From Verpa conica (taxonomy: Eukaryota; Ascomycota; Pezizomycetes; Pezizales; Morchellaceae), in the NCBI GenBank assembly GCA_033030425.1, contig JAUFSD010000012.1, positions 1,240,001 to 1,304,000 of the forward strand: a stretch of DNA of 64,000 nt, in the 5' to 3' direction. The position numbers were made by a program, and so were the translations under genes. The notes beneath the pieces are model-generated. The model was given only the letters and a program-made list of their open reading frames with translations. It was not told where the DNA came from and did not search any database. Positions 3,445-57,097 of the stretch are shown one piece after another (position 1 is the stretch's first letter; the number at the start of each line of letters is the position of its first letter).

Positions 3445-3477
<33 letters not shown>

Positions 3478-31662: not shown

Positions 31663-32543
31663 TCAGAAAATGACGGTGATTTCTGACTCTGGGATACTCC
31701 CAGCCAGCTCCATGATATGGCACCAACCTTTCTCCCTATCTCGTCCAAGTACTACACGGTACTCACCAAGCTTCGCAATAGAAACCTTGACTTCAGTATT
31801 ATCAGAGCTCATCAGCTCACTCTGTTCGATCCCCCAAGCCTCGCAAAAACACCCGAAGAAACACCGAAAGCTAATCGTTAGCGGGGCGAAAACAGGTATG
31901 ATTATGTTTTCCGGGCCTAATCGAGTTTTGAAGGCGTGGTTAACCTCTTTAGAGTCTGAGGGGAATAAGAGGAGGTTGCTTCTGCGTGTAGTGACAGTAC
32001 TGAGTTCATTCTCTGGATTAGAAGGCTGAGTACTTGTTCCACGAAGGCTTTTTTGGCTGAAAGGGCTTGCACCAGGCAACAGGCCCCTCATCCCTTCATC
32101 CAAATCCCCACCTTCATGCCCAACGCCTCTAGCCTGCTCCAGAGAAGCCATTTTAGGTTTTCTCCCCTTTCTTCTCCGCTGTCGCTCGTTCTTTGCTCGA
32201 TTCATCACAAGTGCTCTAAAATATCCTATGATACTGATATCCTTGTTATTATGACATTCAAATATCTGGGATAGATAAAACCTCACTTGTCCCTATCATC
32301 AGCCATCCTCCACTTCCCCTGAGCTCCTTGACCCCAAAACTGCTGCCCGATGCCATTATCGAAGTATCCAATGACCCAGGATTGAAAGGCCTCTTTGTCC
32401 CTCAATGGACCGGCTACCCCGATCGAGTTCTCAGGCTCGTTTTGAATATGTTGTGTCACAATTTCCCAGATTTTTCGAAAGGCTGGGTTTGAGAGTCCGC
32501 TGAGCTGTTGGAACTGGCATTTCTTGATTTCGTGAAGGGCCAT
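31663..32543 (-). CDS. Array family member A: two-domain protein of unknown function
   Basis: Exons 32543-32287 and 32233-31663 (intron 53 bp, GTGAGG..ATCAG, phase 2), giving 275 aa. N-terminal domain: LSNPAFRKIWEIV, then EPENSIGVAGP and GYFDNGIGQQFWG. Exon 2 opens with IIGYFRALVMNRAKNERQRRRKGRK (amphipathic helix plus Arg/Lys patch). A Ser/Gly-rich linker follows. The C-terminal domain runs from FKTRLGPENIIIPVFAPL to PESEITVIF. Leftmost member of the array; it lies tail-to-tail with the membrane-protein gene. The acceptor was chosen by comparison with its paralogues. Unlike the others, its linker lacks a clear SPKR motif. No known family recognised; the basic patch suggests a nuclear protein (inference). 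Confidence 0.75.
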
Positions 32544-33032
32544 TATGCGCTGCTGAGGGATAGAGGATATGTGTTATTGAGTGTATCAAGGTATGATGTC
32601 CTGTTAGTGTAGGAAGCTTAAATCACGCTAGTATACAGGTCAATGTTGGCTTCGATGTCCACTACTTCGTTAAAACGGTTTTCTAAGTAGGAAATATGAG
32701 TATTCAAGAACATTCGTTTAACTTCTCGATTTTATCATCATAGCACTATTGCTATCATTCTAGAGGTTGGACATGGGTTAAACGAAATTTATATTATTAC
32801 TAGAGCTTGCTATAATGAGGATTGAAGCACACTAGGGCCAAATTCATGCCTGAGACTTAGGATCCTATCTAAGGCGCTATAGACTATGAGTTTCGAGCTC
32901 TAATGGCCTTTTAAGATTTTACTAGATTTACTCCTAGGTTATTAAGACTACAAATTACTCAAGATCGTACTCTATGCACTAGAATCTCCCATAGAACGTC
33001 CACATATAAAGAACGTTTTTGAGAAAGCGCCC
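32544..33032. other. Spacer between members A and B
   Basis: AT-rich. No gene; presumed promoter of A and 3' flank of B. Confidence 0.5.
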
Positions 33033-34082
33033 CTACTCATTCCAAAACTCGATCATGATCTCGGACTCTGGCATGTCTACAACCCGTTTCATGACACAGG
33101 ACCAGCCTCTCTCCCTACTCCGCCCAAACCCGATCCGAAACTCTCCCAGCCCAGAGACAAAGACCTTAACCTTAGTCTCTTCAACATTAACCACGTCACT
33201 CTCAGCCCCCCAAGCCTCACGGAAATACTCAAAGAAGCTTTGAAAACTGACTGTCAGAGGTGCAAAAACATGGTTCATTGCATTCTCAGGACATATCCGT
33301 GTAATGAAAACACGATCATCTTGATAGGGGTCTGGAGTATTTGAGGGAGACCTTTCACTACTTGAAGTCTCAGAATCAGACCCCTCAAGGCCATCTAGAA
33401 AAGAGGTGAGCCTGATACGTTTTGGGGGACTTGAGGTTCGTGCTTCATCCTCATGTGTGTGTTTCTTTGGCGATGGATGTTCGGGGAGGGAGCTCGCCGG
33501 AGGATCAATAGTATTGGAGTTATTGATAGGCTCAGAGTTGTCGTGAGGTTTTTTCTGCTGAGAGCTAGAGGAGCGCGTACTAACTGGTAGAGCTGATGAA
33601 TGGTACTGTATCATGCCTGGAGGAATCTCGTACTCTTCGTCCTCACTCTCCTCAGCCTTTTTACACCCACGCCTCCGGCGTCTAAGCTCTGTTGACGCCT
33701 GATTAATTACTAGTTGGGTAAAGAATTCTGCAATTCTGCAATCCGTTTATTCAGCCTTGTCATATTCTCCTAGGAACGAAAGACTAAAGAAAGAAAGTAA
33801 GTATACATACTCATCACCATGCTCATCAAGATTCCACTTTGAAAATGTTCCAGGACCCCAGAAGCGTTCCGAAATTCCATTACCAAGTAAGGTATTTGTC
33901 CATGTCCGGAATCCTTGTTTTACCGTCGAATTCTGCCCTTGCCATGGACTAGATAACCCGATGGAGTTGTCGGGTTCTTTTTGGAGATGCTGTCTCACGA
34001 TTTCACGGAGCTTTGCAAGAGACTTTACGGGAAGTTGGCACTGTTGTTTGAGCTGTTGAGATTTGCAGATAATATTAGGCAT
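33033..34082 (-). CDS. Array family member B
   Basis: Exons 34082-33811 and 33735-33033 (75-bp intron, GTATGT..TGCAG, phase 2), giving 324 aa. An ATG 11 codons upstream is possible, but MPNIICKSQQL aligns with the other starts. N-domain: LREIVRQHLQKEPDNSIGLSSP and NGISERFWGPGTFSKW, with a longer insert between motifs. Exon 2 begins IAEFFTQLVINQASTELRRRRRG. The long Ser/Pro/Glu linker carries SSPPKRIRL (nuclear-signal-like). C-domain: FITRICPENAMNHVFAPL to SEIMIEFWNE. A TTATTAA-type box lies about 45 bp upstream of the start. Function unknown. Confidence 0.8.
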
Positions 34083-35585
34083 GGTGATTATAGTGATGGC
34101 AGTATGTAAATACAAGGCGTGCCATTAATAAGGGAGGGGGAGGCACGCGTATACCGGCAACCCCCGATATAAGGCATCCAGTCTGACGCGTGACGTGTTT
34201 GCATAAAGTGTAAACAAGTGTTCGGCCAGGATCTAAGGGTCAAAGCTTAGACAACCATCTACAGTGACCAGTCAAGGTTATTTGTGGAATAGGTCACAAA
34301 TGGCGAGGTATGACTTGCATGTGGTAAAAAAAAAGCCTGGAAAATCATTGAAGGATGGCGCAAATTTTAAAGTTCTCACTCAAGGTATGCTTTAAGTTAG
34401 GGAGCTCATATTAAAAGGGAATTTAATCCAGCTCCTTGTATATCGTGCCTGGTTATTTTAATTATTGAGAAAGTAGCGAGGGGAGAAATATGACTTTATG
34501 TGGCGTTTAGAAACATGTCTCACAAAGGGTCCTAACTAGTCGTTGTAAAACAATTAAGCCCACATGTACATGAGTGATACACATGGCTCTTAACAACTCA
34601 CAAAGCCTGTGTTCCCAGCTTTCAGCCATTACTCCTCTTATCTAAATAGATTTTCGAGTCTCTAATGCATGCCCCACGACGGAGTCATAACAGGAAAAAC
34701 AACGGTATAAATGCGGGCTGTGTCAGGTGAGTACCTGATACAAATGATAAGGACTGGTTTGGATTGTCAGGCTTCGATAAAAGTTTTCCCTAAAAAACTT
34801 ATAGCACCAAAGAGTGTTCGCTTAAAGATGATTTTAGGGGAAAAAGGCAATAAACCCTGCGACTGAAATGACCTATATTACCACTGTTACTGCTAGGCTC
34901 TGCCATAATAAGGATTATAAGATGTACCATATGCACGCCACGTTTCTATGGGCGGTGGTAGGTTTGGGGTTTAGATACGGTTTGTCTCTAAAGATTCCTT
35001 ATACTTTATTTTTGTTGATGGTTGGTAAACAAAGTAATCCTAGACCTAGAGATATCTAGCTAGAGAACAAAGTAACATCCCTGCTCTACACGTAGGAGTA
35101 CGTAAAATTAACCTCTAAAACACTTTCGATAATTTAGACCTATCATTCTTGTAAAAAATTTCTGTTGTTTACCCCCGGAAAACAACTATGGTTGGGGGGA
35201 ATCTTGGCAAAACAAATGGCACCCTCTTATCATTCCGACAACAGGTATAAGACGTTTATGAAGCTTGATGTCCAAGAGGAGGTACATAACACTCAAAGGA
35301 AATGAGATACAAGTAGAAAGATTGTAGTTCTTATTCCTAATCACGATTTAAGGGAAGTATAGAAGTTTTATTTTATCTGAAACGGGGGTGCCCAAACATC
35401 TCTAGTTTTTTTTCCATATGAATTCCACCCTGAAGGAGCATTAGAATCCCCTCGAAGCGAATCTATTAATACAACTTAGGTAGTACCTACGACGGACCTT
35501 CCACACTCAACAATGTCCTCAGTCTGGATCCGTGTGCTGAACCCATGAGAGATTACAAACAGCTCAAACATCCTAATCTACGCCC
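34083..35585. other. Spacer, no gene supported
   Basis: Promoter side of member B, then AT-rich DNA with a 63-codon frame at 34868-35059 that has no support. No element boundaries found. Confidence 0.5.
34121..34135 (-). promoter_or_regulatory. TTATTAA-type core promoter box upstream of member B
   Basis: On the minus strand CCTTATTAATGG lies about 45 bp before the start codon. The same box precedes members F and G. Confidence 0.4.
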
Positions 35586-36140
35586 TTAGACACTCTTATG
35601 GCCCTGCTGTAGCGCATGACAGTTTTTGCGAGGTACGTCAGCTGCCAGTGCAAGGCTCCATTCAATGCCTGCCAAATCACCCAAGACGTGGTTGAAATTT
35701 TCACTATATGAACCGGCTCGCGCTTCAGCGCTTGTTTCTCCTTGTTCTCGTGGTATCTTTAGCCATGCAAGGAACAATAGATTCTGAAGAGCACCTCTCT
35801 TAGTAGTAGGGTGAGACTCGGTAGTTTCTACGTTGTCTCTCGTATCATCTAAAGGTTCTGTACCGAAAACATTCTGAGTTCGTGTCTCGGCAGACGTGAG
35901 CTGGCCAGGTGACTTTGATCTCCCGCGTACCCCCGCGCGCTTCCTTCTTGGTTTTTCAGAAAGCACGAAACATTGTGCCTCGCCTAATTCCCTCATTTGC
36001 TGGTTACTATCGCCCGCTCCATCACGCCCACAGACAAGATAAATGCAAGGAGCATCGATTGAACCCTCCAATCGAGCTTGTACATTGTCCGTGACACGCT
36101 CAATATGAGTATATACGGCATCGAGCCCCGATCTTTGGTC
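35586..36140 (-). CDS. Possible terminal exon of an unrecognised gene
   Basis: The frame runs 185 codons from a plausible acceptor (TATAG before 36140) to the stop. It begins DQRSGLDAVYTHIERVTDNV and continues SIDAPCIYLVCGRDGAG, which looks like an ordered alpha/beta segment. A basic stretch (KPRRKRAGVRGRSKSP) and a helical tail follow. No ATG lies in the ordered part, so an upstream exon is required; a donor-like GTAGGC near 36196 is a candidate. It may equally be a gene remnant. I do not recognise the protein. Confidence 0.3.
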   Translation of the reverse strand, partial: DQRSGLDAVYTHIERVTDNVQARLEGSIDAPCIYLVCGRDGAGDSNQQMRELGEAQCFVLSEKPRRKRAGVRGRSKSPGQLTSAETRTQNVFGTEPLDDTRDNVETTESHPTTKRGALQNLLFLAWLKIPREQGETSAEARAGSYSENFNHVLGDLAGIEWSLALAADVPRKNCHALQQGHKSV

Positions 36141-36829: not shown

Positions 36830-37017
36830 ATCTGTGTATCGCTTATTGAGTATGCCAAGAACGAATCATGAGACTTCACTCGTAGTGCCGCCGGTCGCAA
36901 CAGTTAGAGCAATGGCCACAATAGCATAGTAAACTGTGTCGGCACTTCGAGACTCCTCATTTTGATTGAACTCACTGATTCTTCGCCTAGTACCGCTACC
37001 ATCTTCAAGTGAGGAGT
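36830..37017. repeat. Left part of a duplicated segment split by the LINE
   Basis: From GAGTATGCCAAGAAC onward this DNA matches 46357-46520 with moderate divergence (shared GACTTCACTCGTAGT, CATAGTAAACTGTGTCGG). It continues on the other side of the LINE at about 44170-44230 (AACCAACTCTGAAG), matched at 46590-46628. It holds a remnant minus-strand frame (TVYYAIVAIALTVATGG). Confidence 0.65.
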
Positions 37018-37501
37018 CAGAGACAACGACCCCAACGAAACGAGTTTTTGGAAATAAAAGAACAACCAACAAGATATTATTTGAGAAAAGTGCATATTTG
37101 GAATCAGAAGAGAGAGAAGTATCTACCCTACAAGTTTGAGAAAAATCAGAGTTCTATTGTGGAAGTTCCTGTTTTCACATAGGAAAGTTTGGTTGCCACC
37201 TCCAATAGGAGTGCTGGGAGCAGGAGGAGAGCAGCTCTACCAGCTGTTTTATCAAATAACTTTTTAACCAGTACAGCTATTATCAAAAGGATTTCAGATT
37301 CGGAATCGTGGAGTTCTGTTTGTGCAGATAAAGTTCTTTCCGTAAGAATTAAACTCACCTTACGAGGCCCTTTTGGGTAAAACGCCCCCAAGAGAGAAGC
37401 GGAGAAGCGACACGTATACAAGTCTTGGCAAGAGGCTTGGCAGAGAACGATAGAAACTGGTAGAAGCCGTATTAGATAAGACAGGGTAACAGCATACAGG
37501 G

Positions 37502-40036
37502 ATGGAGGTAGTGGTGGAAAACAATGTTATTGTTAACAGGCAGGGAGTCAGGTGTTGGTATCCAGTGGGAGAAAGGAAGGTAGAGAAACATAGGAAGTTG
37601 GTGTACTTGCGGGAGGGCGGAGGTGTTACAGGAGAAAAGCAGAGATTTAGTGCAGTAACGTGGGATATGGAAGACAGAGAAGTGCTCGAGGCGTGGTGGA
37701 ATGGGAGATTGTTTATCAGACAGCTGAACAAGATTACTAGGAAAATGGAGTATGTTACTCTTCCGGGGGTGGATAGAGGACAGATAGAAGGACCCTGGGG
37801 GGCGAACGAATGGAACGCCTTTGTTGCATCCAAGGTGGATCAAGAAGTAAGCGAGGTGGGTATTGTGATGAAGATGGTTACGAAGGCAAAGAGGACAGCA
37901 GAAGCATGGGGAGAGAGCGATAAACACCTGGTAAGAAAAGACGGAGAAGGAAATGTTGAGATGGATGATTATCGAAGGGAGGTCGCGGAATTGCTGGGAG
38001 AAATTTTGGAAGAGAAAAAGAAGACAGTATATGTGCCAGGTGTAGGGGCCACGGTGGAGGTGGTGGATTTGACTAAGGATATTTGTATGGAAGATTTGCA
38101 GCGTGAGGTCGAGGGTGGGGAGGATGTAGAAATGGAAGATGAGGAGGATTATCGGGTGAACAGCGCTCAGAAGGAAGAGATGCGAAGAAACGTGGAGGTA
38201 GTGGAGTGCGTGGAGGCTTTTAAAACGAGTGAGGCAAGAGTGGAAATTGAGGAGGCAATTGAGGAGTTTAGGAGGGCAGTTAGTGAGAATTCAGATGTGA
38301 GGGAAGTGAGGGAGATGATTGAGAAAAGAGAAAAGAGGATTAGGGAGGAGGAGGAGAGGGCAGGAGTGAAGGCCGGGAAAAGAAGAGTGGTGAAGAGCGT
38401 TGCAAGCGGATTGTTGGCATCGGTACATGCCACTCATATGGGGAGGAATATTGATGAAAGAAGGGTGAGAGAAGAAAAAGACAGGAGGGCGAGGGCGAGG
38501 AGTGAGGAGGAAGCGGCAGAGAGAGAGAAAATTGAGAGAGAAGGGAATAAGGTTGTAAGTATTACCGTGAGTATGTGGAAGGAGATGGTGGAGACGGTTA
38601 AACAGTTGAGGGAAAAGGTTGATATGCTAGAAAAGAAAGTCGAGGGAGGAGAGAGAGTTAGAGGAAAGAAGGCAAGTGTTGCTCCAGTTTTTCCCCTTGT
38701 ACAGTATAAGAGCCCAGTTAGGGCAAGGGGGGGAACACCTGACGTGCCGAGGGAATTACTAGGAGGGAGCTCTGGGAAAGAGGAAACGATGGGGAAAGGG
38801 AAAGGGAAAGACACGGGGAGGGACAGGCGTGAGAGCGGTGAAGGTATTAGGAAGGAATTGGTGGAGAAGACGGTTAGAGAGAGAAAGAGAAGGGAGGAGG
38901 AGGCGGCGGAAAAAGTTAAAGGCGTTATCAGGATTAAGCTGGGAGAGGAAGGAGAAGGAGGGTGCGGAGTAAAAGAAATTTTGGAAAGAGTTGGAATTGA
39001 AGAGGAAGAGGTAGAGAAGGTGGTTAAGGATGGAAAGGGGACGGAAGTTGGCATGAAAGTGTTTTTGAAAGATGCTAACAGGGAGGACGCGGTGCTGGAA
39101 AAAGCGTGGAAACGGGTAGACAATAAGAAGGTGGCGTCTATGGAGAAGTGGGCAGGAATTGTTGTGGGGGGGATCTCAACTAAGTGGAAGGACAGAATGG
39201 GGGAGCTAGGAAGGTGGATTGAGGAGAAAATCGGCCATAAGTTGATGAAGGAACCTAGGTGGCTGATACATCAGGATAAGTGGCTGAATGAGGGTATTTG
39301 GGGGAAATACATTAATGCGAGAAGTGTAGTTGCAGTTCCGGATTACCAGTCGATCGTTATTCATGTGGCGAGGGCAGGCGTTCGTAGCGAAATTTTAACC
39401 AAGCAGTTTATACGGTTCGTGGACAGCGAGGGGTATAACAACGCACATGCAGCAGAGAGGTGGATTAGTCTGGTGAGGGGGGACAAGGAAGGAGCGGCTC
39501 GAGGCACAAAGGTGTGGATGAAGGAGTACGTGGATAGGAAGAGTTTGTGGTGCTCTAAGTGCCAGAGGGAGGGACACGAGTGGTTTAAGTGCAAAAATAG
39601 GGAGAGATGCGAGTGTGGAAAAGAGGGGCACACTTCGAGGACACATAGGTTTTGTTTTGAGAGTTGCAAGAGTAAAGGAAAAGTGGGGGTGTGTAGACAC
39701 CACAAGCTCGATAGGAAGATTGGAAGTGAGTGGAAAGAAGAAGAATTTGAGTGTTTGAGGTGCAGAGGTAGGCATTCTTTTAAAGTGTGTCCTGAGAAGA
39801 ATAGCAGAAAAGAAGGCAGTGCTGCGAAAGTAGGCAGCGTAAGGGGGGGAAAAGGGAGTGATACGGGCGAAAGAAAGGGCAGCGGGAATGAAGTGGTAGA
39901 AGTTCCTGATAGTCAAGAGGAGGGAGGAGAGAGTGCAGACAGTGAGAGCGGCGGAGAGGGGAACGCTATGCGAGGAGTTGTTGAGGTACCTGATAGTCAG
40001 GATGGAGATCATAGTGACAGTGAGGGGGAGAAATGA
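37502..40036 (+). CDS. LINE ORF1, nucleic-acid-binding protein
   Basis: 844 aa, very rich in Glu, Lys and Arg. Residues about 200-400 form long charged helices likely to coil (EEAIEEFRRAVSENSDV, REMIEKREKRIREEEERA, VKQLREKVDMLEKKVEGG). The C-terminal third has a knuckle cluster: CSKCQREGHEWFKC (C-x2-C-x4-H-x4-C, near 683), a second Cys/His module (CECGKEGHTSRTHRFC) and CLRCRGRHSFKVC with shortened spacing. The tail repeats VVEVPDSQ. Role by family: RNA-binding partner in the retrotransposition particle. Its TGA stop is part of the ATGA shared with ORF2. Confidence 0.9.
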   Translation: MEVVVENNVIVNRQGVRCWYPVGERKVEKHRKLVYLREGGGVTGEKQRFSAVTWDMEDREVLEAWWNGRLFIRQLNKITRKMEYVTLPGVDRGQIEGPWGANEWNAFVASKVDQEVSEVGIVMKMVTKAKRTAEAWGESDKHLVRKDGEGNVEMDDYRREVAELLGEILEEKKKTVYVPGVGATVEVVDLTKDICMEDLQREVEGGEDVEMEDEEDYRVNSAQKEEMRRNVEVVECVEAFKTSEARVEIEEAIEEFRRAVSENSDVREVREMIEKREKRIREEEERAGVKAGKRRVVKSVASGLLASVHATHMGRNIDERRVREEKDRRARARSEEEAAEREKIEREGNKVVSITVSMWKEMVETVKQLREKVDMLEKKVEGGERVRGKKASVAPVFPLVQYKSPVRARGGTPDVPRELLGGSSGKEETMGKGKGKDTGRDRRESGEGIRKELVEKTVRERKRREEEAAEKVKGVIRIKLGEEGEGGCGVKEILERVGIEEEEVEKVVKDGKGTEVGMKVFLKDANREDAVLEKAWKRVDNKKVASMEKWAGIVVGGISTKWKDRMGELGRWIEEKIGHKLMKEPRWLIHQDKWLNEGIWGKYINARSVVAVPDYQSIVIHVARAGVRSEILTKQFIRFVDSEGYNNAHAAERWISLVRGDKEGAARGTKVWMKEYVDRKSLWCSKCQREGHEWFKCKNRERCECGKEGHTSRTHRFCFESCKSKGKVGVCRHHKLDRKIGSEWKEEEFECLRCRGRHSFKVCPEKNSRKEGSAAKVGSVRGGKGSDTGERKGSGNEVVEVPDSQEEGGESADSESGGEGNAMRGVVEVPDSQDGDHSDSEGEK

Positions 40037-43000
40037 TAGGACAGCTAATTGTGTTACAGCATAATTGCATGCGGTCCACTAACGCAATGCAAGGGCTAAT
40101 GGAGAGTGGGAAAGAAGCGGATGTGTTATTAATTCAAGAACCGTGGATCGGAAGAGAGAAGAAGGGAAGGAGAGTTGAAGGGCAAGTGAGCGTAGGGGGA
40201 GGCTATATTACGGTGGGAAGTGGTAATTTTGATATTATATTTAAACAGGATGGTGAGAAGAGAGCAAGGGTAATGGCAATGGTGAGAAAAGATAAAGGAA
40301 TAAGGTACAGAGTGAGAACCGATGTTTGGGACGGGGAAGATTGCATGGTGGTGGACGTGGTGACCACGAGAGGAAGGATAAGATTGGTAAATGTGTACAA
40401 TCAGAGGGATTTTAGGGGAGAGGGAGGCTGGGTGATGAGAAGTATACCTGATGAGGCGGTACAAGGGGAGAAGGTATTGCTGATCGGAGATTTTAATGCT
40501 AAATCGAATAGGTGGGAGCCGGGGGTGGACGAGATTAGAAGTGAGATGGTACTGGATGTGGTGGAGAAGCACAGTATGGTGCTGTTAAATGAGATTGGGA
40601 GAGCAACTTGGTTCCGGGGACAGAAGAAGTCGGTGCTGGATTTGGCGTGGACGAGTCCTGAGCTTGAGGGAATGGTTAACTGGGAAATTATTGACGAAAC
40701 AGGATCGGATCATGAAGTGGTAAAAATAGAGATTAGACTAGAGAGAGAAGTGGTGGTTAACGAGGGAGAGAGATGGGATTTTAGGAGAGCAGATTGGGAA
40801 AAGGTGCGGGAAGAGTGGAGGAGAGTGGATAGTGAGAGAGGAGAGGAGTGGAAGAGGTGTCAAGATGAAAAGAATTTGGATGGTATGGCGAGGGAGGTAG
40901 AAATAAGAGTGGGAAGAGCAGTTGCAGCCGGTGTGCCGGTGGCGAGACCGTGTTGGAGAAGTAAAGGGTGGTTTGATGAGGAAGTTAAAGAGGCGAGGAA
41001 GAGAATGAGTAGGGAGCGAAATTGGGAACGGAGAAGTAAAGTGTTTAGAGGAGGGGGTACAGAGTGGAAGAAGAGTAGGAATGAGTATTTTCGGTTGATA
41101 AAAAGGAAGAAGAAGGAGTGCTGGGAGAAGTATATTGAACAAGCGAAAGGTAAGGATATGTGGGGTGTTTGGAAGCTGATAAATAGGAAGAGGCAAGCAA
41201 AAACACCGAATATAAGGTGGGAAGGGAGAGAAGTAGTGGAGTTTGAAGAAAAGGAAAAAATATTTAGGGAGGTTATGTTCCCTAAAGCTCCCGAAGACAG
41301 AGAAGTGAGAATAGGGCGTGAGATTGAGGAAGGGGCAGAAGGGGGAAGAGTGGAAGAGGAAGAGGTTAAAAGAGCAATTTTTAGTCAAGGGTCATATAAG
41401 GCGCCAGGAGGGGATCAAATTGTGTTTAAAGTATTGAAAGAGGTGTGGCAGGTAGGGAGCGACAAGTTGGTGGAAATGTACAGGGAAATGTTGGAAAGAG
41501 GGTATCACGCAAAGGAGTGGAGGAAAGCAGTGGGGGTGATTATACCGAAGCCGGGAAAAGGGGATTACAAGCAAGTTAAGAGTCATAGACCAATCTCGCT
41601 GCTTCCGGTAACAGGTAAGGTGCTGGAGAAGATCGTTGCTAATAGATTGAGTAGGTTGGGGGAGAGGCGGGGTTTTAGTGACTGCCAGTGGGGAGGCAGA
41701 GAACAGAGGTCGGCTGAAGAGTGTGTAGTGCATACGTTGTGGTGGTGTGAAGAGAAGAAGAAAGAAGGAAAGAAAGTTGCACTGATAGCTATGGATATAG
41801 GACAAGCCTTCCCCAACACGTCGAAAGTTGCCGTTGCGAATACGATTAGACGGGAAGGAGGCAGTGAAAGGATAGCTAGGTGGGTGGAAAGTTTTATGAC
41901 GGAAAGAAAAGTTCAGTTGAGGTTTGATGGAGAAAGAGGAGAATGGGCGGGAGTTGAGACTGGTATACCTCAGGGAAGCCCGGTATCACCAGTTTTGTTT
42001 AATTTGCATATGGCACCGGTTTTGAAGGAGATTGAAAAGTATGTGGAAAGGAATATGGAAGGTGAGGTTATTTGCCCCACCTTTATTGACGATGTGACGT
42101 TAGCGGTGGCCGGTGATGACTGGGAGGAGGTAATGGCGAGAGCGAGCAGAGTAATAGAAGTGGCGTATGAGGAAGCTGGGAAGAGAGATATGAAGTGGGA
42201 TAGTGATAAAATGGAGTGGATTAGGTTGTGGAAGAAGAAGGGGGAGTGGGAACAAGGAAATGAAGAAGTTCTGGAGCTGCCAGATCAGACAAATAAAAAG
42301 GAAAGTAGGTGCATGAGATGGCTAGGAGTGTGGGTGGATGATGAGTTGAAGTGGAAAAAACATGTGGAAATAAAAATTGAGGCGGCAAAAAAGGCGGGAG
42401 TTAAGATATGTGGGCTTGCAAAAGGGCTGAAAGGAATGGGAGTAGGGAGTTTGAGGAGTATGTATGTGGGGTGTGCGAGGCAGGTGATGGAGTACGGAAT
42501 GTTGGTGTGGTGGAAGGGACAGGAGGGGTTGGCGAAGAAAATGGATAAGGAAAATGAAAAGGCAATGAGGAGAATAGGAGGACATTTGAGGACAGCGCCG
42601 GGAGCAGCAGTTGAAGTAGAAAGTGATATGATACCGGTTGGAGTTAGGGCGGAAGCGAGAGGGGAGAAAGCCTTGTTGAGAATTATGCAAAAAAGAAATA
42701 AGGAACATCCCTTGAGGAGGGTAGTAGATATTGAGGAAGAAAAGATGAGAGAGGAGAGTTGGACAGAAAGGCGAGGCAGAGGGAAGATGAGGGCGAGTTG
42801 CATTGGAGAACGTATGAGGAGAATGAAGAATAAGGGGTGGGGATGGGGGAAAGGGAAGATAGAGAGTTGGAAGAAGTTTTATGAAGGAGAGCAGAGGTGG
42901 GAGAGAAAGGCGTTGGAGCATGTGGAGATAGTGGTGAACGAGTTTAGGGATAGTGAAGAGCAGAGGCAGAGGGAGAGGAAAGAGGAGAAAGAAGAAGTGT

Positions 43001-43908
43001 TGATATATGTGGACGGGTCGAAGGTGGACGAGCGAGTAGGTGCAGGCGCCTGTCGAATGGGGGGAGATTTTTGGAATCAGAGTTGGTATTTGGGGAAGTG
43101 TATGGAAGTGGTAGATGCTGAGATGCTGGCAATAGAGAAAGCAATGGAGAGAGGATTGAAGGAGTGCAGAGAAGGAGAGGAGAGAAGAGTTACCGTTGTA
43201 TGCGACTCCCAGCAAGCCATTCGACGGGCCAGTCAACGGTCAGCAACGAAAGGTGAACAAATTGCCTATCGCATACGATATTTAGCAGACGCGTACAGAC
43301 AAAGAAATATTGCGTTAAGGATAGAGTGGTGCAAGGCACACGTTGGTATTGGAGGCAATGAAAGGGCAGATAAGTTAGCTAAAGAAGGCACACAGAAGAG
43401 GCATAAAAATGGGAAAGCCTTTGTGTCCTTTAGCTATGTTGAACGAAGAATGAGAGTGGAGACTATTGAGGAGTGGGAGAGGAGATTTCAGAGTAGTCTT
43501 AACAGGGGAAAGAAATATGAAGCGACCCCGATGAGTAGGCATGCAGTGAGGCACCAACCCTCTGTGAGGTATGAGAAGGTGCTTCTAAGCAGGCTGAGAA
43601 CTGAGCATATTGGGTTAAGAGCATATTTGAAACGGATTGGGAAGGTAGAGAGTAGTGAGTGTCAGTGTGGAGGTGGAGTGCAGGATGTACAACATGTGCT
43701 GGAAAAGTGTGTATTGGGGAGTGAGACGAGAAGTAAGGCGAGGGAAAAAGGAATAGAGACGAGAGAAACAATGTTGTATAGTCAGGAGGGGGCAGAGTGG
43801 GCAGTAGAGATTTTTAAAGAATTTGTTAAGAAAGGGGGAATGAGAGAGGAAGAAGATATAAATTGGCAGGAATGGGGGTGGGGAGGGTTAGAGAGAGAAA
43901 TTGTATAG
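40033..43908 (+). CDS. LINE ORF2: endonuclease, reverse transcriptase, RNase H
   Basis: 1291 aa. Residues 1-230: AP-like endonuclease (LQHNCMRSTNAM, LIQEPWIG, LIGDFNAKSNRW, ETGSDHE). Residues about 450-740: reverse transcriptase (SYKAPGGDQI, ALIAMDIGQAFPN, TGIPQGSPVSPVLFNL, FIDDVTLAV with the catalytic Asp pair). Residues about 990-1120: RNase H (LIYVDGSKVD, VDAEMLAIEKAME, VVCDSQQAI, GNERADKLAKEG). A Cys/His motif (CQCGGGVQDVQHVLEKC) closes the protein. All catalytic residues appear present. The ATG at 40033 overlaps the ORF1 stop, implying termination-reinitiation. Confidence 0.95.
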   Translation: MIGQLIVLQHNCMRSTNAMQGLMESGKEADVLLIQEPWIGREKKGRRVEGQVSVGGGYITVGSGNFDIIFKQDGEKRARVMAMVRKDKGIRYRVRTDVWDGEDCMVVDVVTTRGRIRLVNVYNQRDFRGEGGWVMRSIPDEAVQGEKVLLIGDFNAKSNRWEPGVDEIRSEMVLDVVEKHSMVLLNEIGRATWFRGQKKSVLDLAWTSPELEGMVNWEIIDETGSDHEVVKIEIRLEREVVVNEGERWDFRRADWEKVREEWRRVDSERGEEWKRCQDEKNLDGMAREVEIRVGRAVAAGVPVARPCWRSKGWFDEEVKEARKRMSRERNWERRSKVFRGGGTEWKKSRNEYFRLIKRKKKECWEKYIEQAKGKDMWGVWKLINRKRQAKTPNIRWEGREVVEFEEKEKIFREVMFPKAPEDREVRIGREIEEGAEGGRVEEEEVKRAIFSQGSYKAPGGDQIVFKVLKEVWQVGSDKLVEMYREMLERGYHAKEWRKAVGVIIPKPGKGDYKQVKSHRPISLLPVTGKVLEKIVANRLSRLGERRGFSDCQWGGREQRSAEECVVHTLWWCEEKKKEGKKVALIAMDIGQAFPNTSKVAVANTIRREGGSERIARWVESFMTERKVQLRFDGERGEWAGVETGIPQGSPVSPVLFNLHMAPVLKEIEKYVERNMEGEVICPTFIDDVTLAVAGDDWEEVMARASRVIEVAYEEAGKRDMKWDSDKMEWIRLWKKKGEWEQGNEEVLELPDQTNKKESRCMRWLGVWVDDELKWKKHVEIKIEAAKKAGVKICGLAKGLKGMGVGSLRSMYVGCARQVMEYGMLVWWKGQEGLAKKMDKENEKAMRRIGGHLRTAPGAAVEVESDMIPVGVRAEARGEKALLRIMQKRNKEHPLRRVVDIEEEKMREESWTERRGRGKMRASCIGERMRRMKNKGWGWGKGKIESWKKFYEGEQRWERKALEHVEIVVNEFRDSEEQRQRERKEEKEEVLIYVDGSKVDERVGAGACRMGGDFWNQSWYLGKCMEVVDAEMLAIEKAMERGLKECREGEERRVTVVCDSQQAIRRASQRSATKGEQIAYRIRYLADAYRQRNIALRIEWCKAHVGIGGNERADKLAKEGTQKRHKNGKAFVSFSYVERRMRVETIEEWERRFQSSLNRGKKYEATPMSRHAVRHQPSVRYEKVLLSRLRTEHIGLRAYLKRIGKVESSECQCGGGVQDVQHVLEKCVLGSETRSKAREKGIETRETMLYSQEGAEWAVEIFKEFVKKGGMREEEDINWQEWGWGGLEREIV

Positions 43909-43989
43909 ATTAGGATGGTTATTGCTTGAGCATTAGGCTGGAGTGGAGGATTACCATAACCGAAAGGTTCATGTAATTAATGAATAAAA

Positions 43990-44006
43990 CAAAAAAAAAA
44001 AAAAAA
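43990..44006 (+). repeat. A-rich tail of the LINE
   Basis: A run of 16 A after AATAAAAC, directly before the right target duplication. Confidence 0.85.
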
Positions 44007-44019
44007 TCAAGTGAGGAGT

Positions 44020-44736: not shown

Positions 44737-45888
44737 CTAACCCGCAGAAGTGCCCCTAGGATTAGGGGCCCAAAAGTCCAAGCAGGGCTTGGTGGATAGT
44801 GGATTCTTTTCCACCTCCTTCATGGCATTTGACCAGATAATCTCCCTATGCTTCCCATGGCCGATCTGGTGATTATATCCCCCAGGGATGATGACCTTTG
44901 CATTGACGGTTTTAGGGTCAATTATATAGCCTAATTCGTCTCCCCAAGCTATACGACACTCTTTACAAATTTCCTCGAAGCTGGCGGTTGTGGAGAGTGG
45001 CATCTCAATCACCGAGTCCCCCGGCACCATTCGTGTTATGAACGAACGGGTCCTGTCATGTGGTGTAGGGTGGGGGGCTTCCACGTTGTCTGAAGGTCTA
45101 GAGTGCCGCACCCGTTTTGAGGGACTCAAGTCCCGACTTTCGACCCCAAATATGCGCTTACCGAGGGCTGAGGGTAAAGGTGAGCTCAGAGGTATACTAT
45201 TGGGACCTCCGTCCCTGGCTCCAGCAGACTCGTAGTTTTGGCTCTGTGGGGATGAGCCTGCAAAGCCTGAAGAAGAGGGCCGGGGGTGTATATTTTCGGC
45301 AGGAATTCCTTCCTCCCTATCTTGCTGCTGCTGCCCCTGTATTCCTAGTTGTTCTCTCTCACCTAGTTGTTCTCTCTCAGGCTCTTGATCATCCTCGTCG
45401 AGTGCTTCCTCCTCCTCAAGATCTCGACCCTCCTCTTCGAGTCCTTCCTCTTCAAGATCTTGGTCCTCCTCTTCAAGCTCCGGAGTCCCCATCCGTATCG
45501 ATTCCCGTATCGACTCTCTCCACCTACGTAGGCATTCTTTAGACGCCAGACCAATCACAGTCTCTATAAAGTATTCTGAAATCCTAATATCCCTTGAGCA
45601 CTATAGAAAGAAAAAATCTTAAACAGGTACTAGAAAGGAAACATACTTATTTCTCTCATCCATATTCACACCCTGAAGTTCCCCCCAGAATTTTTGCCTC
45701 ATTCCCGAATCTGACATGAGAGCAATGGCCCATTTCCGGTATTCTTCTTTAATTTTGGATCCCTCCCATGGACTAGCTAGACATATAGAATTATCGTGTT
45801 CTTTTTTGAGGTGCTTTTCGATACTTCTTCGGAGTCTTTGTTTATCTGTTTTTGCAAGACACCAGATCTCTTCGGGTTTGCTAGGCAT
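44737..45888 (-). CDS. Array family member C, divergent
   Basis: Exons 45888-45647 and 45583-44737 (63-bp intron, GTATGT..ATTAG, phase 2), giving 362 aa, the longest member. N-domain: RLRRSIEKHLKKEHDNSICLASP and DSGMRQKFWGELQG. Exon 2 opens ISEYFIETVIGLASKECLRRWRE, then an unusually long Glu/Leu repeat (LEEEDQDLEEEGLEEEGRDLEEEE), a Gln/Pro/Ser linker and LSPSKRVRHS. The C-domain (FITRMVPGDSVIEMPL, QIGHGKHREIIWSNAM) keeps the family layout but lacks the FAPLTI and ESEI motifs. It has drifted or changed role. Function unknown. Confidence 0.75.
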
Positions 45889-48510: not shown

Positions 48511-49485
48511 TTAGAACTCCACCATGATATCTGATTCTGGAAAGCCTTTAGCTAGCTCCATGATATAAGACCAGCTTCTCTCTCTGCTCCGTCCAAAACC
48601 AACATTATACTCTCCTAACCCAGATATCAAAACTTTGGCTTTAACATCCTCAAAACACATTGCTCCACCCTCCTGGGTCCTTGAAGCCTCATAGAAATAC
48701 TCAAGGAAGTCTCGAAATCCAATTGACAGCGGAGCGAAAACAAGAGTGATAGTATTGTCAGGTCCTACACGTGTTTTAAAAACACGATCGGCCCTTTCAT
48801 TTGATTCTGGGGTGTGTCGAGAAGAGGAAGGTTGGTAATCGCTTACAGATCTAGTATAGCTAGGCTCTCTTGTTTCTCTTAACACAGAGGAACTCGTTCG
48901 TTTTGAAGGGGGCAGTGTCTCATCCTCAGAAGTGTATTGACTGGTTGAAGAATCTACATAATGGATAACGGGAATAGCTGTGAATATACCAGAGCAAAGA
49001 TAGTCAGTTCTGTATTTTACATAGTAGGGGATAACTGAGACCATATTTGGCTCATGAGAAAGCTACCTCTCACCGACCTCCTAAGCCCCTCCACTTTCGC
49101 TGGTCTTTTCCTGCTCTTAGAAGCCACATAGGCTCGTCTTGTACTTGCTAGATGGGCAACAAGTCTTTTGAAAAACAGATGAATACTAGAGTTCCAGCTA
49201 TTGTTAGTACCTAAAAGAATATTAAAAGAGGGGAAAGATATACTTTGCCTCGTTCTCATCAAATTTCCACTTTCCTCGGGTTCTGTGGCCCCAAAACTGT
49301 TGCCCAATCCCACTTCTAAAGTAGTTTAGAGTCCACTCGTGGAATCTTACAGCGTTCTTTGCTGGGCCAGCTAGTCCAATAGAGGTTTCGGGTTCATGCT
49401 TAAGGCACTCCGAAACAGTGCTCCAGAGTTTTGCAAAGTCGGGTTTTGAAAGTCGGGATTGCCTCTGTAGCGTTATGCTAGTCAT
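48511..49485 (-). CDS. Array family member D, three-exon type
   Basis: Exons 49485-49244, 49185-49067 and 48977-48511, giving 275 aa. Intron 1 (58 bp, GTATAT..TCTAG) is phase 2 as in all members; intron 2 (89 bp, GTAGCT..CACAG) is phase 1 and is shared only with member E. N-domain: FAKLWSTVSECLKHEPETSIGLAGP and NYFRSGIGQQFWGHRTRGKW. Exon 2: HLFFKRLVAHLASTRRAYVASKSRKR. Linker: YTSEDETLPPSKRTSSS. C-domain: FKTRVGPDNTITLVFAPL to ESDIMVEF. Spliced frames join cleanly at both junctions. Function unknown; likely nuclear by its basic patches (inference). Confidence 0.8.
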
Positions 49486-49613
49486 AGTACTATAAACACG
49501 GTGAGAATGATGTATAGATGGTAACATGTGGTGTAGAGATTTAGGGAGGGGGCGTGACTAAATCCCCTTCAACCTGCGCTTCCTACTTCCACTAATATGA
49601 GACAAATTTAATA

Positions 49614-49840
49614 CCGTATAATCTGATTAAATTCGACCCGCTGTGGCCGGGGGTAACATGCGTTTTTGCGCAATATTCAACACAAAAAAACAAAAAACAA
49701 CACAGTTTTACTCTATATCAGTGTAAGTACATACCTTTCTTGTCCTAGTACCAGGAATTTCCGTGGCCTCAACTGTTCCAGCGCCTATTAACACGCACTC
49801 ACCCCTGCTACAGCGGGTCGAATTTAATCAGATTATACGG
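49614..49840. mobile_element. TIR element 1 (MITE-like), perfect 31-bp ends
   Basis: 227 bp with perfect 31-bp inverted repeats beginning CCGTATAATCTGATT (49614-49644 against 49810-49840), flanked by TA on both sides. No coding capacity. The paralogous upstream region of member E (near 52641-52685) reads straight through the same flanks, giving an empty site. Confidence 0.9.
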
Positions 49841-49959
49841 TAAGTCTACCGCCCTGACCTACTTCTGTCCCGCAGTGTTTTATTACAGAGCTTAGGCCAA
49901 GCGCCAAATCCAGAATACAACTTATTAAGTTCAGATATATCAGAATTGGTTAACAGATA

Positions 49960-50977: not shown

Positions 50978-51123
50978 TTAAAAATCAAGATCAGCCGTAA
51001 TCTCGGACTCTGGCGTATTCTGGAACCATATAATGTAAGATTAAGCCCTTTCTCTGCTTTTCTTTGCTTGATGGGATCAAATGCACATAAGGCCTTCGCT
51101 TTGACTTCTTTGTAATTGATTCC
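50978..51123 (-). pseudogene. Remnant of an eighth array family member
   Basis: The last part of a C-terminal domain is readable on the minus strand: YKEVKAKA near 51110, then after a frame break SYIIWFQNTPESEITADLDF ending at a stop (50978-50980). The PESEIT signature and the conserved 3' flank (50878-50940, like 52985-53045) tie it to the family. The N-domain, linker and most of the C-domain are gone. Confidence 0.75.
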
Positions 51124-51421
51124 TGCCATTCCCGTGTATGATCGCTACTAGGATCCGTGGCCTCCCGACTAATTTTGTTACGATTATTATTGGGGGACTC
51201 ACCTTGAAGAAAGTATGGGCTGGCTGTGACAAGTATGTTGTATTTGTAATGATTCTAGCTCGAAAAGCTCGAATAAGCACCTTAGGCTAGAATTCTACCT
51301 CCATTTATAACGATATAAGTATTTTGTATTTCACTACTCAAGTTGGATATATCTCAGGGGCACCGTGATAACCTCGATTAATAATATATATTTGACTTCG
51401 AAAGCCAGAGAAGTACAAATC

Positions 51422-52325
51422 TTAGGGCCCCACCATGATCTCTAGTTCTGACAGATTCTCGGCCAACTTCATTATATAAGACCAGCTTCTCTCTCTGCTT
51501 CGTCCCAGCGCAACATTATACTCTCCTAGCCCAGGTACCGAAACCTTGACTTTAATACCTTCAAAATCCATCACTCCATCCCCCTGAACCCCCAAAGCTT
51601 CATGGAAGTACTCGAGGAAGCCTTGAAAGTTAATTGTCGGAGGTGCGAAAACGGGCATGATTACATTGTCAGGTCCCTGGCGCGTTTTAAAGACACGATC
51701 GGCTTCGCCCAAATCCGGAGTACATGAAGCGGAGGAAGGAGGCTCTTCTATGTCTTCTGACATAGAACGTTTGATTTGTTTTGGAGTCACTGCCTCATCC
51801 TCAGATGTATATCCGCTGGTCTCGAGGTCTACGGAAGAGATACCTATTAGCACATTAGAAGAAAGAAGAACTCGCAATAGTTGGGGCAGTGGTTAGGTCA
51901 TAAGAACGTTACCTCGTATAGTTCCGCCAGCCCTGCTACCATTTATATCTCTTGACCTTATCCTACGCCTCCTGTATCGTTTCTTATTCGCCTGGTAAAT
52001 AATAAGTCTCTTGAAAAACTCAAAAATGCTAGTACTCTAACCGTCAACACTATGACGTTTAGGAAAGAGATGGGGGGGCATACTCTGTCTCATCCTTAGC
52101 AAGCGTCCATTCTCCTTGGGTCGTAGGGCCCCAGAACCGTTGCCCAACCCCACTCCTAAGATAATCCAGAGTCCATTGGTTGAAAGATGTTGGGGCCTTA
52201 CTTGGACCAGCTAGTCCGACGGAACCATCAGGCTCGCGTAGAAGATGAGTTGAGACAGTATCCCAAAGTCTCCTAAACTCTGACGTAGAGAGTCGCGATA
52301 GTTTTTGTAAGTGTTCACTATTCAT
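51422..52325 (-). CDS. Array family member E, three-exon type
   Basis: Exons 52325-52084, 52028-51913 and 51843-51422, giving 259 aa, the shortest member. Intron 1 is phase 2 (GTATGC..ACTAG, 55 bp), intron 2 phase 1 (GTAACG..AATAG, 69 bp). N-domain: FRRLWDTVSTHLLREPDGSVGLAGP and DYLRSGVGQRFWGPTTQGEW. Exon 2: IFEFFKRLIIYQANKKRYRRRRIRSR. Exon 3 linker: YTSEDEAVTPKQIKRS, close to that of D. C-domain: FKTRQGPDNVIMPVFAPP to ELEIMVGP. D and E are sister copies. Function unknown. Confidence 0.8.
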
Positions 52326-53083: not shown

Positions 53084-54029
53084 TCACAGATCCACCATAA
53101 TCTCAGACTCTGGCATGCTTTCTGCTAATTTCATGATATAAGACCAGCCTTTCCCCCTGCTTCGGCCTAATCCAATCTGATACTGTCCTAATCCAGATAT
53201 GGAGATCTTAACTTTCACGTTTTCAGCATCCATCTCTCTATTCTCTACCCCCCAACCCTCGCGGCAGTATTCAACAAAGCCTTTGAAATCAATTGTCAAA
53301 GGGGCAAAAATGGGTGTGATTATATTGTTGTCTCCAAGGCGTGTCCTAAAGATACGGCCATCTTCTTCTGGTTCTGGAGTAGGTGAAAATAGCTCGCTAC
53401 TTGAAGGTCTAGAACCAGTGTCTGTTGACGTGGAGAATTTGATACGCTTCGGGGAAGCTTGTGTCCTATCCTCGAAAGCACGTATTCTGGTGGGAGAACT
53501 CTGCCGGGACGGGCCCGCAACGGTTTGTATAGATGACTGATACTGTATATCATCTATATAATCACCCTCGTCATCCTCATCATCTTCATCCCCCTCTGCT
53601 TCCGACCCTTCGTCCTCTCTCGAGTGTGTCGCCTTGTATATCCTCTTCCTACGACCTCGCTCTATCATTGCCACTAAAGTCACGAGCCGTTTAAAGAAAT
53701 CCAAAACTCTGGTATCTCACCTGTCAGGACTGTAATACAACCATCAAGAGTAGGGAGAAAACATACACCGCACTATTCTCAGTAAGATTTAATTTCCCAT
53801 CTGCTCCATGACCCCAGAATTGCTGCCCAATCCCACTATCAAGATAGTCAATAGTCCATGACAGGAAGCGTGTATTCTTTTCTGAAGGCGAGCAACCGGG
53901 GCCAGCTAGTCCGATAGAGTTGTTGGGCTCGTCCTGAAGATGTTTCTTTACGGTATTCCAGAGTCTTGCAAATGTGGATTCGGGGAGTTGAGATAGCTCT
54001 TGGAGCTTTCGAGATGTCAAACTAGCCAT
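53084..54029 (-). CDS. Array family member F
   Basis: Exons 54029-53767 and 53708-53084 (58-bp intron, GTATGT..ACCAG, phase 2), giving 295 aa. N-domain: FARLWNTVKKHLQDEPNNSIGLAGP and DYLDSGIGQQFWGHGADGKL. Exon 2: LDFFKRLVTLVAMIERGRRKRIYK, an acidic run (GSEAEGDEDDEDDEGDY), QASPKRIKFSTS and a Pro/Ser stretch. C-domain: FRTRLGDNNIITPIFAPL, ENVKVKISISGLGQYQIGLG, GWSYIMKLAESMPESEIMVDL. This copy is closest to the apparent family consensus and a good reference. Function unknown. Confidence 0.82.
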
Positions 54030-54090
54030 TGTGGTATGTAGTGGGTGCAGGGTGCAGATGTTATGGACGAGGCTCTTGTGGTGTGTTCTG

Positions 54091-54117
54091 GCTTAATAAG
54101 CCTACCGCTCGGACCTT
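54091..54117 (-). promoter_or_regulatory. Conserved upstream block of member F
   Basis: Plus-strand CTTAATAAGCCTACCGCTCG recurs with few changes upstream of G (57159-57180) and partly upstream of D and E. Read on the minus strand it gives a TTATTAAG box about 65 bp before the ATG, a plausible TATA-like core promoter. Confidence 0.5.
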
Positions 54118-55448
54118 TACTTCAGTCCGCGTTAATATATCACTTTTTGGAGTCCCGGGACTGGGTTGTGAATGTAATGAGCAAGAGGAGTTGACTTCGT
54201 GTAGATGATATTGATTAGTGTCTCCATAGTCTCTATACGTATGCCATTACCTAAGCTATGAAGAATCCTTCTAAATAATTTTTTTTTTTCAATTTATATC
54301 AAGTGATTTTATTGTTCTGGGTACAGAATCTGGTATGCAGTAAAAACTATGACCTGAAAAACACCCTTCCCCTTCCTAAAAAATAAAACGTGTCCCCTGG
54401 CAAAATTCCAAATAAAATAATAATGACAAAGGGAAAAGTAAAAGAGAACGAGTATAACTGCGATATCCTTCTTCCCCTAGTGGCTTGTGGCCGATTTGCC
54501 TGAGTACTAGGGCTTGATTGTGTGACGGCTCGCTAATCGGAGCGATTACTTGAAAGTGAAGTGAGAGGAGGCGGATGAAAAGGACTCCTTCTAAACCTTT
54601 GCCTCTGGTGTTATTATAAAAAATAATAATATGCTATTGCTGATAAGAATATATATCTTGACTAAGTTTCGCAGCGATATTTACAATCTAATCACATTCA
54701 GAGCACCTAATGCTTTGCTACTGAAATCTACATCGATTCTAAATATTTTTTTTGGTATGCTAGGCTGAATACTTAGAGGGGAGCTATAAAATATTTACCG
54801 TTACCAGTAGTTTCCGTTCAACGTTAGTACCAAAGCCCAGGGTCATCTCTTAGCTATACTTTACAGTAGCTCGCTGATATAAAGGACTTTTTGCCTACTA
54901 ATTCTGATCGAGTGATTTGGTTTATTCCGCGATCCTTTAGACTGGCTCTTATTAGCCCAAATCTCATTTTTATAAGCAAGAGATTATGCGAGTGACACCT
55001 TATGATACAAAGTACCCTTTCTCTCCTAGCCATTTCCTCCTAACCAGCAAGGTTATTCCCTCTGATTTACGCTTCTAGATGAGTATAAATCCCTAAACTG
55101 GTTGCTTAGGTATAATGTAATAGCTTTTATACGAGGAACAAATGATAGGAGCCCTAAACCTATTCATCATACTTGCTGTTGTTTTGAAGTCTATCGCCAC
55201 CTTAGGCGCTATGAACTAATGTTATAACGTGTATTAGCTATTAGGAGTCTGTATTGAGACATACGTTAATAGAATAAGAAATACATAATTTATAACTTTC
55301 TTCAAGTATAGCACTTTCTATCTAGCCTCTTAATTTTTATCTCACCACCCCGGATAAGGCATGTATGAGTATTATTGGGTTCCTATACCTTGCGTAGTAA
55401 GTCTGGTAGTCTATAATTTCTACAATTGTCATCCCATTGTATCACATA
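54118..55448. other. Spacer between F and G
   Basis: AT-rich, no gene. The family 3'-flank motif (TCTACAATTGTCATCCC...GTATCACA) appears at 55405-55448, interrupted there by TIR element 3. Confidence 0.5.
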
Positions 55449-55929
55449 TGGTGCGCACGGCCATAAAGGTGTACCGGCAAATTTGGCATGTGGAACACCC
55501 CTATTAGGCCTAAGCGTGCCCCAAGCATGCCCAAGTATGCCAATTTTTTTGGCTGCTTCATCCTCTAAAAAAAAATATTTAGATATCTATGCTAAAAGTA
55601 CTTTTAGTAGTATAATAAAGCACCCAGATACTTTCAATACACAAGATACCTCTCTTATGTATAATTTTTAGAAATTTCTGCCTAAGTATATATGATCATG
55701 TACAGTGTATAATGGAGAACGTTCCACATGGCCCCTTTTCACACCCAAAAGTGAGGTTTTATTCCACAACAACCATAGCTCTGGTTAGGCTATAAAAAGT
55801 TGGAGACCTTTAAAAGTACAATATAAACCTTTCCAACTTTTCTTGGGGGGTTCTGGCAATTATTGGTGTTGGAATATCGGCTTCAAATCGGCTTCAAATC
55901 GCGGTACACCTTTATAACCGTGTGCACCA
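55449..55929. mobile_element. TIR element 3 in the 3' flank of member G
   Basis: 481 bp bounded by inverted ends TGGTGCGCACGGCCATAAAG and its near-complement (about 25 of 28 bp), with TA at 55447-55448 and 55930-55931. Paralogous flanks downstream of F (near 53030-53045) and of the remnant (near 50925-50945) run through this point without it. No coding capacity. Confidence 0.85.
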
Positions 55930-55965
55930 TATATAGTGAAAAAGGGAGAAAGTAGTAGCAATCCA

Positions 55966-57097
55966 TTAAATATCAAGATCCACCGTAATCTCGGACTCTG
56001 GCGCGTCCCGAGCCAACCCAATTAAATAAGACCAAATTCTTTCCCTGGTTTTCCCTACTATAATCCGATACATTAACCCACATATCAAGACTTTGACTTT
56101 AACCGTTTCAGAATCGATTTTTCCATTCTCAAATCCCAGGCCCTCGCAGAAGTACTCGATAAAGCCTCGAAAATCAATCGTCAAAGGAACGAAAATAGGT
56201 GTGATTATGTAATCAGGTCCGAGACGTACTTTGATAATATGATCGGTTCCTTCCGTGTCTGGAGCGCGTGGGGATTGCTCGTTGTTTGTAGGTTTAGGAT
56301 CAATGTTCTCTGGTATTGATTCTTTGATACGATTCGCGGGGGAGGCTTGTAATTCAGTCCTAGGAATACTATTCCGAGGTGACAAGCGTATGGTCGAGGG
56401 ATGCCAGGCTGGCCCAGGCACCTGGTACTGTATATCCCCCTCCGGCTCCTCAGGGCTCTCTATCTCTGAGGTAACCTTAAATAACCCTGAATCGGTGTCC
56501 GCTGAGGTAGAAAGTTTAATACGCTTCTGAGAAGCTTGTGCTCCGGAAGCACGCCTCCTAGTCAGCAGAGAACCCTGCCAGGAGGTGCCCGCAACGGTTC
56601 TTAGAGATGACTGATACTGAGTATCGTCTGGATATTCCTCATCGTCCCCATCATCATCCTCCTCCCACTCTTCTAAGTCTTCGTCCTCCCTTTGATACGT
56701 TTTCTTGGACCTCTTCCTGTGGTCTCGTTCATTCATTGCTACTATCATCACGAGTCGTCTAAAAAAGTCCACAATTCTAGCGTTTTGCTTGTTAGCACTA
56801 TAATATACCCAATGAGAATAGGGAGAGAGCATACTCTGCTCTATTATCAACAAGATTCAATTTTCTACCCGTCTCTAGGCCCCAGAACCGCTCCCCAATC
56901 CCACTTTCAAGGTAGTTAATAGTCCATAAGGAGAAGCTTGCTCCGTTTCCTGAAGGCGGGTGACCAGGACCACCTACTCCGATGGAGTTTTCGGGCTCGT
57001 TTCGAAGATGCTGCTTTACAGTTTCCCAGAGCTTATCAAAGGCGGCCGCGGGGAGTTGAGATCGCTCTTGCAGTCTTTCCCGTCGTAAATTGGGCAT
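55966..57097 (-). CDS. Array family member G, duplicated linker
   Basis: Exons 57097-56835 and 56776-55966 (58-bp intron, GTATGC..GCTAG, phase 2), giving 357 aa. N-domain: FDKLWETVKQHLRNEPENSIGVGGP and NYLESGIGERFWGLETGRKL. Exon 2: IVDFFRRLVMIVAMNERDHRKR, an acidic run, then two copies of the linker module. The first is IQYQSSLRTVAG..QASQKRIKLSTS-like and the second IQYQVPGPAWHP..LQASPANRIKES; F has one. C-domain: IKVRLGPDYIITPIFVPL to PESEITVDLDI. The ATG at 57097 was preferred over upstream in-frame ATGs because it aligns with the other members. Function unknown. Confidence 0.8.

Follow-up and report, generated by a model that had tools for sequence, protein, structure and literature searches.

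We describe here a family of genes in the ascomycete Verpa conica, seven intact members of which (A to G) form an array in a 64-kb window (positions 1,240,001 to 1,304,000 of contig 12, JAUFSD010000012.1; coordinates below are those of the window) of a genome of 45.8 Mb in 25 contigs. The seven array genes are real, protein-coding and under purifying selection, and by sequence comparison the array is one clade in a genome-wide family, derived from local tandem duplication of one member. With middling confidence we read the family as an undescribed fungal group of nuclear adaptors, in which a helical N-terminal domain (N-domain) is combined with a PB1-like C-terminal interaction domain (C-domain).

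An earlier note, made from the sequence alone, had placed here seven minus-strand genes of shared architecture, together with one wrecked copy. We rebuilt the genes from the DNA, setting the splice sites by hand with the alignment of the genes as guide, and every start and stop coordinate proved exact. All seven lie on the minus strand and are open once spliced, encoding proteins of 259 to 362 amino acids, and the first intron (GT-AG, phase 2, 53-75 nt) falls at the same position in each of them, after the part of the N-domain that bears FWG. Gene A (31663-32543; 275 amino acids) has exons at 32543-32287 and 32233-31663, an intron of 53 nt and a C-domain at 31956-31666, and gene B (33033-34082; 324 amino acids) has exons at 34082-33811 and 33735-33033, an intron of 75 nt, the linker motif SPPKRIRLTS and a C-domain at 33332-33036. 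Gene C (44737-45888; 362 amino acids; exons 45888-45647 and 45583-44737; intron 63 nt) is the most diverged and has a long acidic linker with the motif SPSKRVRHSR; an imperfect 39-bp tandem repeat at 45374-45474 encodes this linker in LEEEG-type units. Genes F (53084-54029; 295 amino acids; exons 54029-53767 and 53708-53084; motif ASPKRIKFST; C-domain 53374-53087) and G (55966-57097; 357 amino acids; exons 57097-56835 and 56776-55966; motif ASQKRIKLST) both have an intron of 58 nt.

The shared architecture described by the earlier note is borne out, except that the second introns of two genes had gone unreported. Genes D (48511-49485; 275 amino acids; exons 49485-49244, 49185-49067 and 48977-48511) and E (51422-52325; 259 amino acids; exons 52325-52084, 52028-51913 and 51843-51422) each contain an additional GT-AG intron of phase 1 at matching positions in the linker (49066-48978, 89 nt, in D; 51912-51844, 69 nt, in E). 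Both genes need this intron because their frames otherwise stop, that of E at an internal TAA. The motifs given for the family likewise hold as a consensus but not as strictly invariant strings: eighteen positions are identical in all seven proteins (M1, L15, E34, S38, P44, W58, G66, F71, W72, G73, F93, A101, R211, F229, K255, G269, R272 and W276 in F numbering), and identity to F is 30-55% across the array, with C the outlier at 30%. The wreck at 50978-51131 on the minus strand is also real and is what is left of the 3' part of a copy resembling G: blastn aligns 161 bp to G at 68% identity (E 1e-13), with frame-breaking gaps, and tblastn gives E 0.003. In a six-frame profile search of the window the exon-1 part of the N-domain scored 95-124 bits and the C-domain 120-149 bits at the seven genes, which are the same genes that trained the profiles; the other matches were short exon-2 ends of the N-domain in these genes (4-16 bits) and the wreck (E 0.67). 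No further remnants were found in the masked window, the other tblastn rows having E-values of 0.42 and 0.47.

The proportion of synonymous differences (pS) exceeds that of nonsynonymous differences (pN) in all 21 gene pairs, for N-domain, linker and C-domain alike. In the N- and C-domains pS is 0.4-0.9; many of the more distant pairs have reached saturation (pS around 0.7 or above), so that their omega values are not suited to close quotation. In the least saturated pairs per-domain dN/dS is approximately 0.3-0.5, well below 1 in both domains, and omega over N- and C-domains together is 0.37 for F/G (bootstrap 0.25-0.51) and 0.35 for D/E (0.23-0.52). Together with the seven open spliced frames these values uphold the earlier claim of selection.

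The flanks were compared by blastn, each array gene being extended by 500 bp on its upstream side and by 300 bp on its downstream side. That the DNA between the genes has decayed is mostly right, since the flank matches are otherwise short (33-62 bp), but a similarity of 181 bp at 64% persists upstream of F and G, the sole long one between genes. Repeat-induced point mutation was considered as a cause of this decay and is at most mild, the TA/AT index being 1.02-1.16 in intergenic DNA versus 0.78 in the array coding sequence, with a substrate index of 0.93-1.11. Upstream of D, at 49612-49842, there is an inverted self-similarity of about 230 bp at 60% (234 bp in the flank comparison), possibly an old mobile-element remnant.

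The family appears to be unnamed, with no credible match in Pfam, NCBIfam, PDB sequences or 5.77 billion proteins. The seven full proteins gave only sub-threshold noise in Pfam (best E 0.19), the seven array C-domains gave no match there, the best NCBIfam E-value was 0.17, and profile searches of PDB sequences gave E 0.28 or worse. Among the 5.77 billion proteins, the full array proteins found none at E ≤ 10 among 7,990 candidates; because acidic low-complexity words may have swamped this search, the linker was dropped from a second one, in which the joined N- and C-domains again found none at E ≤ 10, among 1,107 candidates. This absence outside the genome refers to the array proteins, the dispersed paralogues described below not having been queried against that set. 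As a control, a nearby SMP-30-like frame (19465-20856) has 12 matching proteins in it, the closest of which, at 61-63%, come from metagenomes, while the matches assigned to a species are those of Morchella importuna (57%) and Tuber aestivum (43%); the set thus includes proteins of both fungi, although the completeness of its fungal content was not gauged. In IMG/VR the joined N- and C-domains gave four pattern matches, none of which was confirmed. In the open-licence literature we found no work on PB1 domains in Pezizomycetes or Pezizales, and no on-topic title for tandem orphan genes in Pezizomycetes.

Relatives do exist elsewhere in the same genome. Whole-genome searches with exon 2 of F (E ≤ 0.001) and with B and C (E ≤ 1) returned the array only. 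When A and D served as queries and matches up to E 10 were admitted, weak similarity to the N-domain emerged on five further contigs (best E 1.2e-5); repeat searches from the dispersed members then added three loci before saturating. There are eight dispersed loci on six other contigs (C1:3401k, C7:1155k, C8:1507k, C11:396k, C16:1160k, C16:1204k, C16:1294k and C23:350k), with an N-domain at seven and seven C-domains among them, none having been found at C8:1507k and C11:396k having a C-domain only. The family therefore has at least 15 copies including the array, and the spliced models built for 12 of these are open; C16:1160k, C16:1294k and C11:396k are not fully modelled. All 21 matches listed for a consensus query fall at the dispersed loci or the array. 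Matches at C6:851244 (E 2.1) and C22:584512 (E 0.15) were left out of the family count as weak.

The five modelled dispersed proteins have the N-domain, the intron and a variable linker, and four of the five have the C-domain; the intron is of phase 2 at the array position in all six of those modelled. At C16:1204k (L015:2948-4401) two N-domains stand in tandem ahead of a C-domain, and a phase-2 intron closes the second as it does the first. In profile comparison the array and dispersed C-domains are homologous (E 9.3e-6, probability 83%); the dispersed C-domains are 11-20% identical to that of F and 19-33% to that of the C1 member. The array is monophyletic in both domain trees (97/97 for the N-domain, for which the bootstrap had not settled, and 96/100 for the C-domain), D+E and B+C pair in both with support of 84-94 (D and E being sisters at 94/90 and 85/88), and C has a long branch in both. 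The branching order among the dispersed genes is unreliable because of their long branches. The frame at C11:396k (L056:2949-3383) is a stand-alone C-domain adjoined by a divergent long frame (L056:411-2846), a putative MutS homologue (MSH6-like). The gap between the two is about 100 bases, leaving little room for an N-domain, and this C-only frame may represent the older unit of the family.

The C-domain of F is predicted to be a ubiquitin-like beta-grasp of b-b-a-b-b-a-b topology with a pLDDT of 85. The best Foldseek match is the Ras-binding domain (RBD) of RalGDS (2rgf, E 1.9e-3, TMq 0.62), level with the PB1 domain of Cdc24 (E 4.4e-3, TMq 0.63). On the strength of this model we firmly regard the predicted fold as a beta-grasp, closest to PB1. 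An acidic OPCA motif of PB1 domains has been described (PMC2121648). The type I OPCA motif is absent from the array, in which the turns between strands 3 and 4 read SGLGQ, CGLMY, AKLGE, SGLGE, PGGYN, SGLGE and PGLGE. The arginine of FxTR in strand 1, a candidate counterpart of the conserved basic residue (lysine) of type II PB1 domains, is present in seven of seven array C-domains and three of seven dispersed ones.

The linker carries a K[KR]x[KR] motif in eight of 13 genes (B, C, F, G, P13 at C7:1155k, P16 at C23:350k, P17 at C1:3401k and L054 at C16:1294k; C16:1160k and C11:396k were excluded from the count), as against a shuffled expectation of 1.76, and none of 1000 shuffles had as many; those of B, C, F and G are not independent, since they were possibly inherited from a common ancestor. 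The core agrees with the KRXR of class 2 import signals as described in PMC6360766; the complete class 2 consensus further requires a proline three residues upstream, which only L054 has. It is from this import-like motif that we infer the proteins to be nuclear. The linker at C1:3401k (L017:3440-3490) contains RRGPGRPRKK, which resembles an AT-hook.

Taken together, these features suggest an alpha-helical N-domain of approximately 110 residues that would end in a conserved helix and an Arg/Lys patch, followed by a variable Ser-rich and acidic linker, presumably disordered and with a KRx[KR] import-like motif in most members, and a C-terminal beta-grasp of PB1-like topology. The proteins would be imported into the nucleus and serve there as adaptors or regulators: the N-domain would bind DNA or a partner protein, and the surface charge of the C-domain would mediate association among family members or with a partner. 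The eight residues before the conserved tryptophan, at the start of helix 2, have a net charge of +1 to +3 in all seven array members and of -2 to -4 in all seven dispersed C-domains, a contrast that points to complementary surfaces on the two groups of proteins. A net-charge difference over the whole C-domain was also looked for and not seen (0 to -6 in all seven of the array; +1 to -8 in the four of seven dispersed domains computed). A more far-reaching version, in which these are lineage-built combinatorial nuclear regulators whose basic-faced array members pair with acidic-faced dispersed ones in a PB1-like but separately evolved manner, we consider improbable.

Several results weigh against the nuclear-adaptor reading. 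No Foldseek match of the C-domain passes 1e-3, and the PB1 model (PF00564) is absent from the Pfam matches of all seven array and all seven dispersed C-domains at a maximum E of 10, a setting at which the HMMER filters still remove most matches above about 0.1; the same model finds four above-cut-off PB1 stretches in this genome. Alignment by hhalign to these four domains gave a probability of only 15% for the dispersed and 8% for the array C-domains, with one strand-helix covered. The model of the N-domain, built from exon 1 alone and so leaving out the third helix in exon 2, is helical but poor (pLDDT 65) and has no Foldseek match at E < 1, so that it gives only a weak indication of helices. 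K[KR]x[KR] is missing from the linkers of five of the 13 genes (A, D, E, P14 and P15), and the linker is weakly constrained (omega 0.65 for D/E, 0.32-1.37; 0.48 for A/F, 0.15-1.14). The charge contrast probably reflects one evolutionary event because the array is one clade, and the segment was chosen after the alignment had been seen. Finally, the intron phase common to array and dispersed genes is not blind evidence, since the dispersed splice sites were set manually by someone who could see those of the array, and the 208-nt intron of P17 has alternative possible ends.

The strongest competitor to the nuclear-adaptor reading is that the C-domain is Ras-association (RA)- or RBD-like and the proteins are effectors of small GTPases, not self-assembly adaptors of the PB1 type. 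RalGDS does have the top Foldseek E-value, level with Cdc24 PB1, both folds being beta-grasps, and strand 1, where basic residues could contact a GTPase, has its invariant arginine in the array. RalGDS has a lower VIA-align Z (8.2) and no sequence match. We think this reading unlikely though worth keeping in view.

A birth-and-death family serving self/non-self recognition or genome defence would explain the missing homologues by fast turnover. The lack of a homologue for the array proteins outside this genome would fit, as would the tandem duplication with its remnant, the long-branched C and the double N-domain at C16:1204k. The conserved domains are nevertheless under purifying rather than diversifying selection, and Pfam finds no NACHT or HET domain in ten non-array frames of the window (of 74 listed; the ankyrin-like frame at 6869-9307 is not among them), making such a role decidedly doubtful.

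Domesticated or still-mobile gag-like transposon proteins are less probable still. An apparently complete long interspersed nuclear element (LINE) lies within the array, a Copia frame lies about 26 kb off, and copies of the family occur on seven contigs, that of the array included. Against this, Pfam finds no transposable-element domain in the seven array and five dispersed proteins, and the dispersed copies retain the intron at the same place and therefore were not copied via spliced RNA. Their C-domains are moreover old, as the low identities given above indicate, blastn detects no common element ends in the near flanks of the array genes (500/300 bp), and the family has about 15 copies, not hundreds. 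That the array consists of decaying, non-functional copies still open by chance, as the one clear wreck and the weakly constrained linkers might suggest, is scarcely credible given seven open spliced frames of such length and an excess of pS over pN in every pair at pS values this high.

Other features of the window lie outside the family. The LINE, a non-long-terminal-repeat (non-LTR) retrotransposon on the plus strand between B and C (37018-44006), has open frames at 37490-40036 and 40024-43908, the second with RVT_1, endonuclease and RNase H domains in Pfam. It has a poly-A tail, is flanked by a target-site duplication of 13 bp (TCAAGTGAGGAGT) at 37005-37017 and 44007-44019, and shows strong positive GC skew over its length. 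The Copia-type LTR retrotransposon polyprotein frame (1434-5900; 1488 amino acids) is fully open, with gag, integrase and reverse transcriptase domains. The long frame at 6869-9307 (812 amino acids, apparently a single exon) is putatively ankyrin-like, to judge by its repeat pattern. Past the array, at 59058-59990, is a 310-amino-acid open frame without a Pfam match. Rfam has no match in the window.

The central claim of the earlier note is supported, with two amendments: the family has dispersed loci, and its C-domain has a predicted known fold. To the earlier picture we add the second introns of D and E, the spread of the family through the genome, the shared ancestry of the array genes, a predicted C-domain fold that is PB1-like but lacks the acidic motif of PB1, and the enrichment of an import-like motif in the linkers. 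The family, with at least 15 copies, is unnamed in the annotation libraries searched; its C-domain is placed only by structure prediction, and for its N-domain no relative was found. It is a defined and testable set of proteins. If the nuclear-adaptor reading is correct, it would show lineage-specific fungal regulators arising through tandem duplication and a change of charge in an interaction domain, and if the C-domains do pair by charge, assembly of the PB1 kind would have been arrived at independently.

The plant ARF, Aux/IAA and NLP proteins also combine an N-terminal functional domain, a variable middle and a C-terminal PB1 domain, and are nuclear. The likeness is one of layout only, with no evidence of common descent: the plant proteins belong to another kingdom and have a known DNA-binding domain, whereas Pfam finds none in the seven array and five dispersed proteins. 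As for PB1 domains proper, the four found in this genome have a DEDGD-like OPCA cluster, whole or partial, between strands 3 and 4; the array members lack it and instead open helix 2 with a run of basic residues.

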